From: Sipunculus nudus
Taxonomy: Eukaryota; Annelida; Sipuncula; Golfingiida; Sipunculidae
DNA length: 64,000 nucleotides
NCBI GenBank assembly: GCA_026874595.1
Contig: CM049307.1
Coordinates: 63,020,370-63,084,369, forward strand
Reading direction: 5' to 3'
Shown piece by piece: positions 2,862 to 40,762 of the stretch (positions are counted from its first letter, which is position 1; every line of letters starts with the position of its first letter). Position numbers and translations under genes: made by a program. The notes under the pieces were generated by a model. That model made no database searches, had not been told where the DNA came from, and saw nothing but the letters and a program-made list of their open reading frames with translations.

Positions 2862-2988
2862 TGGTGGTCATTTCAACCCAGCTGTGAGTTTTGGTGTTGC
2901 CCTTGGTGGAGGGCTACACCCTTTGAAATGCTTCTTCTACCTCCTGGTACAAGTTGTTGGTGGTATTGTTGGAGCAGCTCTTACAAGG
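2862..2988 (+). CDS. AQP8: Aquaporin exon with first NPA box
   Basis: The acceptor is ttatcttgtag (AG 2860-2861) and the donor is AGG|GTGAGT (GT at 2989). The exon has 127 nt: one base completes a split codon, then 42 codons end in phase 0. It encodes the first NPA half-helix (HFNPAV) and the following membrane helix ([18 protein letters not shown]). Its last 15 nt are the source of the minisatellite that follows. Confidence 0.95.
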
Positions 2989-5900
2989 GTGAGTAGCAGC
3001 TCTTACAAAGGTGAGTAGCAACTCTTACAAAGGTGAGTAGCAGCTCTTACAAAGGTAAGTAGCAGCTCTTACAAGGGTGAGAAGCAGCTCTTACAAGGGT
3101 GAGAAAAGGCATTTACAAAGGTGAGTCGCAGATCTTACAAAGGTGAGCAGCAGCTCTTACGAGGGTAAGAAGCAGCTCTTATAAGGGTAATAACAGCTTT
3201 TACAAGGGTGAGTTACAGCTCTTACAAGGGTGAGAAGCAGCTCTTACAAGGGTGAGTAGCCACTCTTACAAAGGTGAGTAACAGCTCTTACAAAGGTGAG
3301 TAGCAGCTCTTACAAGGGTGAGTAGCAGCTCCTACAAAGGTGAGTAGCAGCTCTTACGAGGGTGAGTAGCAGGTCTTACAAAGGTGAGTAGCAGCTCTTA
3401 CAAGGGGGAGTAACAGCTCTTACAAGGGTGAGTAGCAGCTCTTACAAGGGTGAGTAACAGCTCTTACAAAGGTGAGTAGGAGCTCTTACAAAGATGAGTA
3501 GCAGATCTTACAAAGTGGAGTAGCAGCTCTTACAAAGGTGAGTAGCAGCTCTTACAAAGGTGAGTAGCAGCTCTTACAAGGGTGAGAAGGAGCTCTTACA
3601 AAGATGAGTAGCAGCTCTGACAAGGGTGAGAAGCATCTCTTACAGGGGTGAGAAGCAGCTCTTGCAAGGGTGAGAAGCAGCTCTTACAAAGGTGAGTAGC
3701 AGCCTTTACAGTGGTGAGTAGCAGCTCTTACAAAGGTTAGAAGCAGCTCTTACATGGGTGAGTAACAGCCCCTACAAGGGTGAGAAGCCGCTCTTACATG
3801 GGTAAGTTACAGCCTTTACAAGGGTAAGTAGACAAGAATATTCAAAATTAACAACATGAATACAATGCTGGTTTATATAAAATTTAGATGAAAATATCTT
3901 TATCAGTTGTTTTTAATTGTGAAAGCATGTAGTGCTTAAATCCAGGAAAAAAAGCATTGACTGAAAATCCCTTATAGTAATATGATTATTGTAAAACTTG
4001 TACAACCATGTGTATATTAAAAACTCAACATAAATGTTTTTCATCATGAAATGTTACATCCCTAGTGATGGGAGCTATGTAATTACAGTGTCTTACACAA
4101 AGATTATTTGTCCTGGTGTGCAGACTAGACACATATCTACGAGTCTGTATGTGCATCAGGTTTAGCTACACTCGCTTGTTCTGCCCATTCATTATTGTGC
4201 ACTTGAAGACCAGTTTAGGTTCATCCCAAATATGACAGATGGCACTCCAATATAATAAAGACTCATTTTTATGACTAGTGAACATTTTAATTCACAGGCA
4301 ATAGAAATGACATAACTGAAGATTGTTTCTAAATTAATAAGCATAAGTTAAGACAAAATATTATATCCAGTCCTACTTACTACATATTTTATTAATAGAA
4401 TCAATTTTGTTTGTTGATAGTATAGGAACAACTGAAAATTTTGTAATGTTAGATTCAATGAGTCTTGGATAATGTAAACGTATCACAAAAAAAGCCTTGT
4501 GCCTTTTTGCCTTGATACAGAATCATAATTGCCAACAGCGGGTGCTGCAATAGCCTCAACAGAGGGTGCTGCAATAGCCTCTTAAAAAATAAATTGAAAT
4601 ATCTCTCAACTTATGGAGTAATAAGTGAAAAAAAAAACCATAGGAAACACTTTGCCTCATTCCTGACAGTTCAAGACTAAAAATGTACATAGTCAAGACA
4701 TGACTACTCACAAGTTCTGAGACTAAAGTCTAGCACAACCACGATCAATTATTATATGTAGTGTGTGTACTGCTCACATTTCTACACACTTACACCTTGA
4801 TTTTAAATGGAACTGTGTAGACATATACATTGGAATCATTCTTAATAGGATATAAGCTATTATAAAAACAGTATAAGAAATACATATAAAAGTAATTCTA
4901 TCAAGCACTTTATGGTACAGCAATGTATAGTCATTGCAATAGGTAAGAGAGATTTAATCAGTTTTAATCAGACAAATAATATATGATAACATTTACCTTA
5001 TTATAACATTTTACTCAAATCAGTAAAAATGTACTCAAATTTAAAAATGTAGAGTAGAACTTACAAGAAGAAAATATGTATAGTACTATGAAAAAATATA
5101 GAAAAAAATAGTATTTAGAGGATATATATTTCAGAGCTCAATATATTTCAGGGCTGCATGGACATGAGTACATACAAGTCTGTGTTTGGTGGCTGCACCC
5201 TGCTGGGACCTAAAGCTACCATTGGTTCAGCCATCTTGGTCGAGTCTGCCATGACACTGTTACTGGTCCTTACAGTACAGCTTGCAGCCGTGGATACCAA
5301 AGGAAAGAACCTGTTAGCCCCTCTGATGATCGGCTTTACTGTTCTGGTGGATATCATTGGAGGGTGGGTCACTTTAAGTGTAAATAAATTATATGTTTGT
5401 AATCATAAGTTTAAAAATGGCATAATGTTGAAGACATATCTGATAAACAGGATTGTTAAAGCCAGATATTCACATATATTTTTTTATAGATTTTTTTTTA
5501 TTTCTGGCATACTCTGTGTTCATATTAATGAGATGTAGTTAATTCCTGCTAAGAAACGTTCATATAACGCCTCTGTGAAGGATGTATATGATCTTGTTTA
5601 TCTACAAGGTGTTAGTAAACATATCAATATTGACCTAAAGCTAAAGTGTTTGGTTGCAAATCTGCGGAAGTTGAAGGGCCACTGCTTGCAAACCACCCAT
5701 TACAAAACTCTTGTTCATCTGAGATGCTAGTAGATGTCCCTGTTGAATGTATTTGAAATATCTTTGTGGGCCCCCCACCTGTTATAAACATGTGGATAAA
5801 AAAATGAACAGCCTGTGTGGGATGGAATGGGCATTTTCTGGCCTATTTTTTATAAAAGATTCAAGATATTACCTTTATTTAATAGACATCAGATAACGTA

Positions 5901-7736
5901 ATAGACATTTTCTACTACACTAGTGACATGTTGAGGGGATGACTGACCCTAAGATCAAGTGTTCAGGTCTGTTATATCAACAAAAGGGTTGTCCTCGTTA
6001 CATATCTCAAGCTAAGCTAATTTTAAGCACCATACATTTCCTGAGACAATAATCATTTGCACCATCCTGCTGCGGACCCATAGTGTGTTAGCTTTTATGA
6101 AACATCAGTATAAACTTTCAAATCATGCACGCCTACTTGGAGTGAAAATATTTTGACCAGAAACCCACCTCTTTTTGAAAGATAGGTCCATGGACTTTAT
6201 GGCACTATCATTGAATGAGTGAGAAGGTAACTCTGTGATAAGAATGATATATGCTGTTGTTCAGCCTTCAGTATTTTATATGCACAAGTCTTGAAATAAT
6301 TCAAAGGTGATATAATCCTGTGACAAAAACAATAGAACTCATGAGGTTAATTCTATTGTAAAGGGTTTTACCATTTTTTTCTTTGAGGCACTGATGGGGA
6401 AATAACTGGGGTCACCTTCAGCTCCGAAACCTTACGTCTAAACCACAAATCTTTCCTACATAAATACGAGCCTGACAGTTACAGCTAATGCTTTCATAAT
6501 ATTTTAGTTGTAGTGTAAACAGTTTAGTTTTTTTTCAACAGTGGGAGTATCAGCGGAGCTTCCATGAACCCTGCCCGCAGCATTGGTCCGGCCGTGGTGT
6601 TCTCCTCCATCAAAGATGAATATATCTGGGATGATCACTATGTCCACTGGGTGGGGCCTCTCATTGGCTCACTGTTTGCTGCCTTCTTCTTCAGGTGAGT
6701 TGCAGAAACAGGATTCCTTCTCCCTCACTGGACAAAATTTTATTATTATGTCATAATGATAATTAATAGAAATACAGTGAAACCTGTGTAATAGGACCAT
6801 CTGTGGGACTGGCAAAAAGTGGTTAATTCACAGGTGGTCTTATTAGACAGGTCAGTTATAACCAGTGTGAATGCATTCAGTTCACTCAAGGGTAGTCTTT
6901 ATAGACAGGTGGTCTTATTAGAAAGGTAGACTTTCAGAGAGGTTTCACTCTACACAGCAATATTTTTTTTAATTGAGAGAATGTTGAATATGTCTTATCC
7001 TTTGTGAAAGACAAATCAGGACTAAAACATTATTTGTCACTCGATATACAAATTTTAATAATATGTTGTGAATGTGGACCTGAATCTGTTGTGAGTTGTG
7101 ATTTTTTTTAAATAAAAAAGCATGTGAACAAAATCTGTCTTCAGTGCAGCCTATATCACCAAATTTAATTTTTGGTCTTGTGTTATGTTATATTTGGCTT
7201 TTGAATCAAACAATGTTACTTTTGTTAACCTCTGATATTAATCTAAATATATTCATTGTTTTGAATCACATATGCTTTAAATCTAATAAGCTGCATTAAC
7301 AGAATTTGTATTTATGCTGTGTTCCTTAATGAACCTTCTTGGTTTATCCATGGACTTTGATAATTTTATTATTTCAACTTAATCATTACAAAATTCACTC
7401 TGCCATGTGTTTCATTGATTGAACAGTGTCTGTGTAACTTGTTATTAATTCATATAAAAAGTTCTTGATTACAATTCACTGGAAACAATAAATATTATGA
7501 AGTTATTCCATGATATAAAACAATTGCAACAACTGCTCTTTCACTGTTTTAAAGCTTTCATATGATTTTACACATAAAAACATTAATTTACCATTTTGAT
7601 TACATATTAAACATTTGAATAGATTCAATTAGTTTATATCCTGTGGTGCTTATTGTGGTTATACTGATTAAATTTAATTTGTTTCAGAATTTTCTTTGCT
7701 GCTGGAGACAGGAGAGCAATTGACAGGGACAACTAA
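2862..7736 (+). CDS. AQP8: Aquaporin-8-like channel, 3' part of gene (four exons)
   Basis: Joined coding exons are 2862-2988, 5152-5363, 6542-6694 and 7688-7736 (stop TAA 7734-7736), giving 179 codons plus a split first codon. The product is the C-terminal two-thirds of a major intrinsic protein, a plasma- or inner-membrane channel for water and, in the AQP8 group, ammonia and peroxide. Both NPA boxes are present: GGHFNPAVS in the first exon and [10 protein letters not shown] in the third. The frames join cleanly and the order [43 protein letters not shown] follows AQP8. The aromatic/arginine filter shows Ile 12 residues before the second NPA (where AQP1 has His), Ala 3 before it and Arg 3 after it. 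Ile at this site is an AQP8 trait. The first transmembrane helices (roughly 85 residues) must be encoded before the window. Family membership is very sure; the AQP8 subgroup is likely. Confidence 0.93.
2974..3833 (+). repeat. 22-bp minisatellite made of the exon end plus 5' splice site
   Basis: About 38 imperfect tandem copies of gtgagtagcagctcttacaa plus ag. Each unit equals the last 15-16 nt of the preceding aquaporin exon followed by the first nucleotides of its intron, so each carries a near-consensus donor (GTGAGT, GTGAGA or GTAAGT). Only the first donor, at 2989, keeps the reading frame. Reading through meets a TAG at 3016-3018. Units vary by single substitutions. Confidence 0.95.
3834..5151 (+). 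other. Aquaporin intron, unique AT-rich sequence
   Basis: No coding potential or clear repeat was recognised. A short duplicated phrase (gtgctgcaatagcctc) occurs twice near 4540-4582. The acceptor is atatatttcag at 5141-5151. Confidence 0.7.
5152..5363 (+). CDS. AQP8: Aquaporin exon, helices 4-5
   Basis: The exon has 212 nt, enters in phase 0 and leaves in phase 2. It encodes the extracellular loop ([14 protein letters not shown]) and two membrane helices ([20 protein letters not shown] and [15 protein letters not shown]). Ile in VDII occupies the H5 selectivity-filter position. The donor is GGAGG|GTGGGT, with GT at 5364. Confidence 0.95.
5364..6541 (+). other. Aquaporin intron
   Basis: AT-rich sequence with no recognisable gene. 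It ends in a long T tract and the acceptor ttttttttcaacag (AG 6540-6541). Confidence 0.7.
6542..6694 (+). CDS. AQP8: Aquaporin exon with second NPA box
   Basis: The exon has 153 nt and is phase 2 on both sides. It encodes [19 protein letters not shown], a short loop ([13 protein letters not shown]) and most of the last helix ([16 protein letters not shown]). The Arg after NPA is the conserved filter arginine. The donor is TTCAG|GTGAGT at 6695. Confidence 0.96.
6775..6950. mobile_element. pogo/Tigger-like MITE with TA target duplication
   Basis: This 176-bp block begins cagtgaaacctgtg and ends agaggtttcactc, an inverted repeat of about 11 bp, and is flanked by TA on both sides (6773-6774, 6951-6952). 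The inside repeats the phrase cacaggtggtcttatta. Related copies lie at 18304-18447, 25247-25351 and probably 60683-60866. TA duplication and a CAGTgrAACCT start fit the pogo branch of Tc1/mariner. Confidence 0.75.
6951..7687 (+). other. Last aquaporin intron, distal part
   Basis: AT-rich sequence with no feature other than the acceptor aatttgtttcag at about 7676-7687. Confidence 0.6.
7688..7736 (+). CDS. AQP8: Aquaporin terminal coding exon
   Basis: The exon has 49 nt. After completing an Arg codon it encodes [15 protein letters not shown] and stops at TAA 7734-7736. The short basic cytoplasmic tail is normal for AQP8-like proteins. Confidence 0.93.
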
Positions 7737-27200: not shown

Positions 27201-30200
27201 TCATTTGTCTGTAATATTGGGATGCTTTTGTACTATTGCCATGAGAATTCACTTGAAAAGTGACCATTTGCCATCCACAATGTGGAAAAGAAACATTTGA
27301 TGGAGTCATTGCTGTGGAATATTTATATATTGATCTGAAGTTACTACAATGTAATGAAATCTTCAGATCTTAGTATTTTCTTTAATGATTTATGATATGT
27401 AAAAAATATATTTTTAAATCATTTATTTACTATATATGTTATTACAGTTATGTATAAAATTAACCCTGACTATCTTCAGATATTTGACTTCACTGCTGAT
27501 GACCTTCAGGACCTTGGGGAGATTGGGCGGGGAGCTTATGGCACTGTAAACAAAATGTACCATGAACAGAGCAACACTGTAATGGCAGTCAAGGTCAGTT
27601 CCATACACACAAGGTCACTGCCTTAAACACTCAAGGTCAGTACCATAAAAACCTGAGATCAAGCTTTTTCTTAAGTACCTTAAAAAATTTTTGTTTTAGT
27701 TATAATTGATTGATTTTTCAGATTTTTTTCAGTTTCAACTATAACATATCTTCACTAATTGCGTTTCTTAACAAACCTAGTGACATGCAACACAAACAAG
27801 ATGCCACACAAACTTTGAACAGAGCTCTAGTTGGTGTCTGTGTCCTGTTTCACTCAGATACCTTCCCAAAGTGGTTGTTATCACTGGTGCATGAGAGTAA
27901 ACAGCTCTACATCAAGTTAAAAAAATTCAATTCACTTTACAATTCTCAAAGCATATACTACAGCCTTGTGGGGATTTCAGATCTGAACATTTTCTAGTTT
28001 CAAGTATACCCAGCTGAGGAATTTATCTGGTGTCAGGGGTCTGAATTCTGGTGTAGTACTCTTCAACTGTATGTTGAACTTGAAATAGCAGTGTAGCATG
28101 CTTGCTTTACATGGTGAGAAAATCCTGAGCGTTAGGCAAAAATAATAAAAAGGAATGGTTCTCAGGCACTTTTTTTCAGAAATCAATGCAGGCGGGCAGT
28201 TTATTTATTTTTATTATTTTAGGATGTTTCAATAAAAATGTCAAATGATAAGGGAAAGGCATGATAATAACAGATTTATTTTGCTAAACAAGCAAAAGCA
28301 CTACATAAAAAAGGAAATTGTATGATTTTATCTACTTGAAAGAAATATCGGAGCAGCTGCAGCTCAAAATCGATAAGTTTCTGTTGAAAATCGAAATAAA
28401 AATTTTTGATGCGGGAGGTTAAAATTGATGCGGGGAGTGCCTGAGGACCATACCTTTAATTTTTTTTGGCCTTACTTCATTAACTTAACTTGACCACAAA
28501 CATAGGCCATATCCATCAAGCTATGCCATCAATGGGCATAAAATGTCAGAACTTCAAAGAAAGTCAGGGGGATATGACATCAGTTCTGATCATTTACCTT
28601 AACTGACATTTCAAATCAAGAAGTGCATGGGTATTGCTGTACCTTAAATATGTGATACCAATGAAAGTCAACTAATATCAGATGGAAGTATGCTTCCACT
28701 GAATGTTTTCTTGTGAGACCAGGATGATGAATAATATGAAATCTCAGCCTTAGAACACTAACTAATCCTTTTGATGTATGATGACAGGTCTAGTTTTGCA
28801 TTAAATCTCTGACTCCCATTGCACAAATCAAGTCTATTGCTGAGACCGGGTGCTGGTTGTCCCAGTGCACTGAGGCGTAACTGGTCTTGTGACCCCTCCC
28901 CTGTTGTATGAAGGATGGCCTTTTCCTAATGGTACTTGCTATAGGGGTGTTCACCGAGACCTGATATATATGAATATTAATGTTGTTACAGAGGATACGT
29001 TCTACGGTGGACGAGAAGGAACAGAAGCAGCTGCTGATGGACCTGGAGGTGGTGATGAAGAGTAACGATTGTCCATGTATTGTACAGTTCTTTGGAGCGC
29101 TCTTCAAAGAGGTCAGACACAACTTCCTTGTTCCTAAAGTGTCACTTATCTAAAATAAGATAAATCAGGTCAAAGGTTGGCAGACTGTTTTCCCAGAGGT
29201 CCACATGACACATCCGCCACTTCCTGATGGGCCACAATTGACAAAAATAAAAAATATTCTCTCTAAAATTACTAAGTATTCCATATAAAACTCCATTGAT
29301 TGTTATAATCTGTTACTGTTTACAACGTTTCACTTTAGTCTCAGTCAGGGCATTTTTCTATATGGATATGCCTGGGACTGCACAACTACTGCCCGAAGTA
29401 AATTCAAAACTTGATAGAAATAAAGAAATAAGGTTTGTAAATGTAAATTAATGGTAGTATCACTTGGGACTTTACCTGTTGGTGAAAAGATGGGTAGTAT
29501 CATTTCCTTTACCATATATTCCTCATATAGGTATGTTTCATTATTTAAAGTGAATTATTATAGTTATTTTCTTATGATTTTACAGGGAGATTGCTGGATC
29601 TGTATGGAGCTGATGTCGGTGTCATTAGACAAGATATACAAGTTTATTTACGGGCCTTTAGCACAGAGCATACCAGAAGAAATATTAGGAAAAATAACAG
29701 TAGCAGTAAGTACTTAGTACAGTTTCATGTACGTGTAGAATCAGTCTGTGGATATTCTTTTAGTTCAAGACTTCTAATCAAGATAAATAGCTATTGTAAA
29801 AGTTAAAGTGATGTTTTTGAGAATGAGGAGACCTCATTTGACCGTGTGCAAGTCCAAAGCAACAGCATCTGCCTGTTGTTGGTGTCTTGTATTTTCATTA
29901 AATGTAACAAATATATCAAGGCTTGATATAAACTTTTGAAAGTACTTGCCTTGTCTGGCAAGTAACATCTAGCTTTTACTTGCCCATCATGAATTTTTTA
30001 CTTTCCCCACAAATATTTTTTATTGTATTCAAGAACACAAAGATCCTTTTTCAAGCCTTTACTTGGATTAAGGTGTATGTTGGACCCATTTGCCCAGTGG
30101 GGCAAGTAGGAGGAGACTTTTAGTTGCCCTACCATTTTTCTGGAACATTCACTTGCCCTGGGCAAGCGGTTAACGATTTAATGTTGAGCCCTGTACATGC

Positions 30201-38985: not shown

Positions 38986-40762
38986 GGCCAAAAAAAATAA
39001 AAGGTATGGTTCTCAGGCACCGCCCGCGTCAATTTTAACCCCCCGCATCAACATTTTATTTTGATTTTTATAGTTTTACCCATGTCCGTCATTCCGAAAT
39101 AAAACAGTTGTACGGACTTTTTTTCGCAATGCCTGCAGATATTGGCCTGATTTTTGGTGTGTGGCCAGATAATGACCAGATACAGATCAAGTTCGCGTTT
39201 CGTCCCAGTTGACCTACTTTTGACCGTTTTACGGCTCCTTAACTTAGAAAATTTCATGAAAAATAGAAATTTTCATGACAAATACACAGGTACGGACCTT
39301 TTTTTCGCAATGCCTGCAGATATTGGCCTGATTTTTGTTGTGTGGGCAGATAATGACCAGTTACAGATCGAGTTCGCGTTTCGTCCCAGTTGACCTACTT
39401 TTGACTGTTTTACGGCTCCTATATTTAGAAAATTTCATGAAAAATAGAAATTTTCATGACAAATATACATGTACGGTTTTTTTTCGCAATGCCTGCAGAT
39501 ATCGGCCTGATTTTTGGTGTGTAGGCAGATAATGACCAGTTACAGATCGAGTTCGCGTTTTGTCCCAGTTGACCTACTTTTGACCGTTTTACGGCTCCTA
39601 AATTTAGAAAATTTCATGAAAAATAGAAATTTTCATGACAAATATACATGTACGGACTTTTTTTTCGCAGTGCCTGCAGATATTTGCCTGATTTTTGATG
39701 TGTAGGCAGATAATGATCAGTTACAGATCGAGTTCGCGTTTCGTCCGAGTTGACCTACTTTTGACCGTTTTACGTCTACTTAACTTAGAAAATTTCATGA
39801 AAAATACAAATTTTAATGACATATACACATGTACGGACTTTTTTTCGCAATGCCTGCAGATATTGGCCTGATTTTTGGTGTGTAGGCAGATAATGACCAG
39901 TTACAGATCGAGTTCATGTTTTGTCCCAGTTGACCTACTTTTGACCGTTTGACGGTGGTCTAACATAGAAAATTTCATTAAAAAAGTGCACATGTACGGA
40001 CTTTTTTTCGCAATGCCTGCAGATACGGGCCAGAGTTTTGGTGTGTAGGCAGATAATGACCAGTTACAGATCAAGTTCTTGTTTTGTCTCAGTTGACCTA
40101 TTTTTGACCATTTGACTGCTCCTGAACAAGTTTCATGAAAAATAGAAATTTTCATAACAAATGCATATGTACCGACTTTTTTTCCTCAATGCCTGCAGAT
40201 ACCACCCTGATTTTTTATGTGTGGGCAGATAATGACAGTTGCAGATCGAGTTCGCGTTTCATCCCGGTTGACCTACTTTTCATTGTCTTACGGCTCCTAA
40301 ACATAGAAAATTTCATGAAAGACAGAAATATTTATGGAAAATGCACATGTATGTACTTTTCTTTCACAGTGCCTGCAGATACTGGCCTGATTTTTGGTGT
40401 GTTGCTTGATAATGACCCGTAACAGATCGAGTTTGCATTTTGCCCTTGTTGACCTACTTTTGACCATATGACACCTCCTGAACTTAAAAAAATTTCAAAA
40501 TTTAACAAATGTTTCTAATTTGCCCCAGGCGGGGGCATTCGTGTCGTTCCGACACATCTAGTTATCTTTCAAGAAGATAAATAATACAATTTATGTAGCG
40601 CCTTTACCTGTTTAGCAAAAAAAGACGTTTAATTTATGCTTTTCCCTGATCATATGACATTTTTATCAAAACATACATAAAAAGGTCAAAAATAAAATAC
40701 CGCCCGGCCGCACTTATTTCTGAAAAAGTGCCTGAGAACCATATCTTTTTTTTATTTGGCCT
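38986..40762 (+). mobile_element. PIF/Harbinger-like MITE carrying a nested tandem-repeat element
   Basis: Terminal inverted repeats (ggccaaaaaaaataaaagg then tatggttctcaggcac; right complement ggccaaataaaaaaaagata) match the intact copy at 28135-28471. The flanks are CTA (38983-38985) and TTA (40763-40765), consistent with a TWA-type duplication after one mutation. Outer parts 38986-39099 and 40563-40762 align with the reverse complement of the intact copy. The 1.46 kb between them is absent there. Confidence 0.8.
39100..40562 (+). mobile_element. Nested element: about eight 180-bp repeats with a 3' hairpin
   Basis: Eight tandem units of about 163-182 bp are marked by caatgcctgcagata near 39127, 39308, 39487, 39669, 39848, 40011, 40188 and 40366. 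Units diverge toward the right end. The segment ends in a 15-nt hairpin, gtgtcgttccgacac (40541-40555: 6-bp stem, 3-nt loop), then acatctagt. Tandem core repeats plus a near-terminal hairpin resemble the Helentron-derived pearl/HINE elements described in bivalves. That class is inference. The 60-100-codon frames here are artefacts. Confidence 0.7.

Follow-up and report, generated by a model that had tools for sequence, protein, structure and literature searches.

It has long been asked how the spliceosome settles on a single 5' splice site when several nearly identical ones lie side by side. The question is raised by an aquaporin gene of Sipunculus nudus, located in a stretch of 64,000 nucleotides that was analysed as a whole (hereafter the window), in which the end of an exon and its donor site form the first unit of a tandem repeat that extends into the intron. 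Which of the many donor copies serves the gene, how the array arose and how such a structure is borne by a working gene are the questions considered here. The answer that we regard as probable is that a duplication across the exon-intron junction has grown into a minisatellite, that splicing takes the most upstream site, and that tolerated arrays of this kind recur in the genome. Coordinates of the features discussed are collected in Table 1.

Table 1. Features of the aquaporin locus, the kinase locus and a Kunitz-domain locus; positions are those of the window unless a contig is given
Feature	Position	Strand	Basis and remarks
Aquaporin exon, SGGHFNPAV...GAALTR	2862..2988	+	Pfam MIP, E 4.2e-13; AG acceptor 2860-2861; ends in phase 0
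22-bp x 39 minisatellite	2974..3830	+	Copy 1 (2974-2995) spans the aquaporin exon end and its predicted donor
Predicted real 5' splice site GTGAGT, copy 1 of the array	2989..2994	+	Phase 0, the phase of the acceptor before 5152; spliced product open
Array-bearing aquaporin intron	2989..5151	+	Acceptor 5150-5151 outside the array
TAG stopping the frame for donor positions from copy 3 on	3016..3018	+	Frame reading
Next aquaporin exon, ends DIIGG	5152..5363	+	Donor GTGGGT at 5364; Pfam MIP and alignment
Third aquaporin exon of the window	6542..6694	+	Donor GTGAGT at 6695; Pfam MIP and alignment
Kinase exon, ends LGEIGRGAYGTVNKMYHEQSNTVMAVK	27448..27593	+	Donor GTCAGT at 27594; start inferred from AG 27446-27447
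Second exon-end array, 22 bp x 2.9 copies	27589..27649	+	Tandem Repeats Finder; copy 1 contains the donor with the 5 exon bases before it
Kunitz-domain exon (L046)	G000:C3:77612131-77613080	-	Pfam, E 4.1e-20; a 39-bp donor array (at least 7.7 copies) has the exon end as its copy 1

The gene model rests on three spliced exons, which can be aligned with the best-matching aquaporins of solved structure over residues 1-163 of 164; the second of them, searched alone with Pfam MIP, scores 24.1 bits, narrowly below the cut-off of 25. Altogether 54 distinct solved-structure sequences were matched, and the junction was inspected in four alignments, in all of which the join of 2988 to 5152 is ungapped, with a one-residue gap four residues further on. 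Because of this ungapped alignment with solved aquaporins the exon end GAALTR is considered old, and therefore the array most likely grew from exon sequence. The sample of 284 kb contains no tandem aquaporin beyond the window.

The window contains other repeats as well. A 35-bp pyrimidine-rich minisatellite, with 47 copies in the window at 1-1650 and an upstream continuation in L017 (9808-10000), presumably lies one intron further upstream in this aquaporin gene, and a related 35-bp array is present at 2227-2489. A satellite-like repeat of 181 bp occupies 39109-40497 (7.8 copies, 84% matches).

Tandem Repeats Finder places the 22-bp array at 2973-3831, with a period of 22, 39.1 copies, 84% matches and a score of 1137. 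By direct reading copy 39 occupies 3809-3830, and the units are 22 bp long in 38 of 39 cases, the remaining one (3172-3192) being 21 bp. The array begins 15 bases 5' of the exon end, and copy 1 comprises this exon end and the first seven intron bases; an earlier note on this DNA, which had described the unit as the last exon bases joined to the first intron bases of the aquaporin gene, was correct in this respect. The consensus of all 39 copies is identical to copy 1. No clear continuation of the unit was found upstream of 2973 or after 3831, and the exact 22-base pattern has eight matches in the 1.43-Gb genome, all within this array, in a search that would miss diverged copies elsewhere. Neighbouring copies are not detectably more similar than copies in shuffled order (lag-1 identity 18.58 of 22 versus 18.44 +- 0.15, a level reached by 19% of shuffles). 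An assembly artefact seems unlikely, because the array is 0.86 kb in length, consists of many distinguishable units and lies within a 98.5-Mb contig.

The donor site has been retained to a variable extent. Among the 39 copies GT is present in 35, GTRAG in 33, GTRAGT in 23 and AG/GTRAGT in 12; leaving copy 1 out, GT is found in 34/38 and GTRAGT in 22/38. The statement of the earlier note that each copy carries a GTGAGT-like site is thus true of most copies but not of all.

The consequences of using a later copy can be read directly from the frame. Splicing from donor 2 would add 22 nt and shift the frame, leading to a stop in the next exon after 69 codons (counted from the first full codon of the exon), while the 37 donor positions of copies 3-39 would all include the TAG in the array, reached after 51 codons. 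A premature stop is therefore the outcome at all 38 downstream donor positions, 34 of which have GT. Since every later position breaks the frame or hits a stop, the first donor must make the protein. The reading frame, together with the ungapped aquaporin alignment of the 2989/5152 splice, upholds the claims of the earlier note that downstream donors would break the protein and that only the first one keeps it intact, and the TAG and the last donor, GTAAGT at 3824, lie exactly where it had located them. Exclusive use of the donor at 2989 is predicted from the sequence.

Stronger donors than the first are present in the array. The 5' end of U1 RNA, ATACTTACCTG, is the usual one and is identical in the eight U1 loci read, of at least 42 listed; in pairing with this U1, 12 of the 38 later copies are better than copy 1 and five more are equal to it, so that U1 strength alone would not select the first donor. 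By the general textbook donor consensus, copy 4 matches at 8 of 9 bases and copy 1 at 6 of 9. As copy 1 is the only one that gives the protein, yet is not the strongest, a working gene needs either a rule preferring upstream sites or definition of the short exon. The U1 RNA loci themselves, all over the family cut-off and with the same score, number at least 42 and are found in two regions, G000:C6 50.26-50.37 Mb and 88.24-88.30 Mb (L009-L016 and others), mostly at a spacing of 2.8-2.9 kb.

Arrays of the aquaporin kind are already known. In intron 7 of the human F7 gene, which contains 37-bp repeats, only the most upstream site is normally used, a behaviour termed 'oriented scanning' in the account of PMC6627357 (citing Borensztajn 2006). 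According to that account, the tandem repeats are many and nearly identical and the first of them contains the real 5' splice site, as is the case here, where the first repeat has the real exon end with its donor and most later repeats carry donor-like sites. The F7 unit is 37 bp and its number variable, whereas the aquaporin array is 22 bp x 39 in one assembly, and use of the first donor is reported there but predicted here. The minisatellite of human IFI6 (6-16) 'provides multiple splice donor sites', in the words of the title of Turri 1995 cited in PMC4526556, and is thus likewise a minisatellite supplying several splice donors; as presented in PMC4526556, however, two downstream units act there as donors giving protein variants, while the downstream donors all break the frame here. 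An IFI6-like array with several productive donors was accordingly rejected for the aquaporin gene, a premature stop following from 38/38 downstream positions. Tandem duplication that copies splice-site sequence has also been described as a source of intron gain (PMC4974935). The copying of splice-site sequence is common to that account and the aquaporin locus, but here no new intron is formed, and the array lies inside an intron with an outside acceptor before 5152; the position of this acceptor at 5150-5151 led us to reject the duplicated segment as a new intron itself. The remark in the earlier note that the arrangement has no standard name is fair, but F7 intron 7 and IFI6 are precedents for it. 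We noticed no genome-wide survey of such donor arrays in the open-access literature, which is weak evidence of absence.

Starting from the observed array, gene model, frame consequences and recurrence of donor-motif arrays, the favoured explanation may be put as follows. Tandem duplication across the aquaporin exon-intron junction would have produced a 39-copy minisatellite within the intron. The most upstream 5' splice site, the sole one leaving the aquaporin intact, would be chosen by an upstream-first mechanism such as that reported for human F7, and the remaining copies would be spliced out together with the intron. As long as the first site prevails, growth and drift of such arrays would cost little, and the genome has several of them at likely exon ends.

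Spare donors of any importance would be expected to show less variation than the remainder of the unit. Across the 38 later copies no conservation of the donor columns beyond the rest of the unit was found: columns -3 to +6 have a mean of 5.1 departures per column versus 2.9 in the other columns, a difference due mostly to columns -2 and +6, each of which is divided between two states, and a permutation test for lower variability of the donor columns gives P 0.88. The array is therefore taken to be neutral. This bears on an explanation by regulated unproductive splicing, in which downstream copies are used, leading to a premature stop and decay, and array length tunes aquaporin output. Such regulation would fit the stops at all 38 downstream positions (in the next exon for position 2, at 3016-3018 for the remaining 37) and the better U1 pairing of 12 downstream donors, but the donor columns lack the conservation in question, and a frame break is unavoidable with a 22-bp unit and is not evidence of regulation; we regard this explanation as improbable. 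Still less credible is a role for the array as a U1 decoy or in telescripting, binding many U1 particles and so starving the real site or shielding the intron from early polyadenylation. There are indeed 35 GT sites within 0.86 kb, the U1 5' end is the usual one in the eight loci read, and the intron downstream of the array, where GTRAGT is absent from 3834 to 5151, contains AATAAA at 4254 and 4588 and ATTAAA at 4016. However, with at least 42 U1 loci titration by one intron is unlikely, and two AATAAA in a 2.2 kb intron look unremarkable. Both U1 titration and allele-length-dependent decay are thus unlikely roles of the array.

A further proposal is that the RNA masks itself, CUUAC of each unit pairing with its own or a neighbouring GUGAG and folding the spare donors away. 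CUUAC is present in most units, where it can pair with the adjacent GUGAG donor, and it also occurs within the U1 5' end. All five pairs of this hairpin are possible in 30/39 copies, and the 874-nt array stretch folds better than 20/20 dinucleotide shuffles (z -7.1). The ten hairpin columns are somewhat less variable than the others (one-sided P 0.02, or 0.06 without the two most variable columns, a post hoc choice), which is not predicted by neutrality. Nevertheless, a small inverted match within a repeat can by itself be enough for a low z; for two single units the fold is no better than that of shuffles, and for three units only slightly better, the same level being reached by 16/200 shuffles. 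Furthermore, the first donor carries the same hairpin and is predicted to be the least accessible of the 39 in one local-fold setting, and accessibility shifts with the settings, that predicted for the first donor with all 39 copies ranging over three orders of magnitude. The fold evidence is conflicting and setting-dependent, and we give RNA masking very little credence.

The explanation by junction duplication and upstream-first splicing also holds that such arrays recur, and a second exon-end array was found in the window, at a kinase exon that we take to be MAP2K4-like. Its NTVMAVK continues in frame with RIRSTVDEKEQKQLLMDLEVV in the next exon, and the two kinase exons joined match Pfam Pkinase with E 7.8e-10. 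The self-similarity of this array is 18/22; of 20,000 random positions, 0.7% show as much. When four donors of the window were scored, those at 2989 and 27594 gave at least 18/22 and those at 5364 and 6695 gave 10/22; donor-spanning self-similarity at two of four scored donors is no more than suggestive. In the 284 kb sampled, neither a second kinase gene of this type nor relatives of the aquaporin or kinase-exon array were found outside the window. A survey of the same 284 kb with Tandem Repeats Finder gave 190 rows of period 10-100, of which two contain the donor motif, both in the window, and one the reversed motif. Donor-motif arrays are thus not common in the 220 kb adjoining the window.

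On the scale of the genome, three AAGGTRAGT/MAGGTRAGT motifs in close succession gave 448 matches (147+301) versus 40 for the motif read backwards, and the donor-motif matches cluster in arrays. Grouped by hand, the matches listed, to C4:24.48 Mb, comprise at least 11 arrays including that of the window, with one control locus in the same stretch, which corresponds to about 332 of 1427 Mb if the matches are in genome order, as appears. By the same grouping the whole genome has 18 control loci. The reversed-motif control is small and imperfect, as its locus on C11 (8/40 matches) itself has CAGGTAAGT copies; this array (G000:C11:1109681-1110037), found by the control motif and with units containing CAGGTAAGT, is possibly another donor array. 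For the single motif the background in the sample is 16 versus 12. Some arrays can lie across exon ends by chance alone, and a bias towards exon ends is indicated only by the excess over the reversed motif.

For the other ten arrays the 5' side was read, and the edge was not reached in two (L040 with L049, L048 with L050). A third, L041 with L051 (G000:C1:74849500-74851520), was rejected as a donor array: it is a 33-bp, apparently coding repeat (DKVSQESQPSE), in which the motif AAGGTGAGT is just codons. At four of the seven array edges read (L046, L047, L039 and L045) the first donor is directly preceded by an open frame of 186 nt or more, compared with 99, 12 and 90 nt at L042, L043 and L044. 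In the 284-kb sample, which takes in the window, 10% of 710 GTRAG sites have at least 186 nt open, so that four of seven has a chance near 0.003, with a threshold chosen after the values had been seen (lowering it to 141 nt raises the background to 19%). Measured in this way, the kinase exon has 198 nt and the exon of the aquaporin 156 nt, which would miss the threshold of 186. Since the threshold is post hoc and the aquaporin exon gives 156 nt, the open-frame test is a rough guide.

Among these four loci L046 carries a Kunitz domain (Table 1). Pfam detected nothing at E up to 1 on the candidate exons of L047, L039 and L045, and their status as exons therefore rests on open frames and acceptor-like sites. 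L045 is the weakest candidate, with 15/26 of its last exon bases identical to the next copy, and at L039 the coding status is only putative, the ATG-starting reading (141 nt) being in a different phase from the longest one. In all four the repeat includes 17-38 bases of the candidate exon end, as in the aquaporin gene. The exon-end arrays found here have units of 22 to 42 bp and from about three copies upwards.

Tandem duplications spanning donor sites thus appear to be repeated in this genome. The simplest account of them would be ordinary tandem duplication, tolerated at a 5' splice site since splicing can go on from the upstream copy, as in F7. A bolder possibility is that exon ends are hot spots, at which duplications across the 5' splice site are generated or retained more frequently than elsewhere, being made harmless by upstream-first splicing, giving long donor arrays in many unrelated genes and lengthening their introns; this reading is tentative, and we lean somewhat against it. 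If true, it would define a class of long donor arrays that test donor choice in nature.

The likely recurrence within one genome raises the interest of the aquaporin array. Several donor arrays in unrelated genes of one genome would be natural replicates for upstream-first choice of a 5' splice site, and they would illustrate the unnoticed growth, inside introns, of a duplication that looks harmful.
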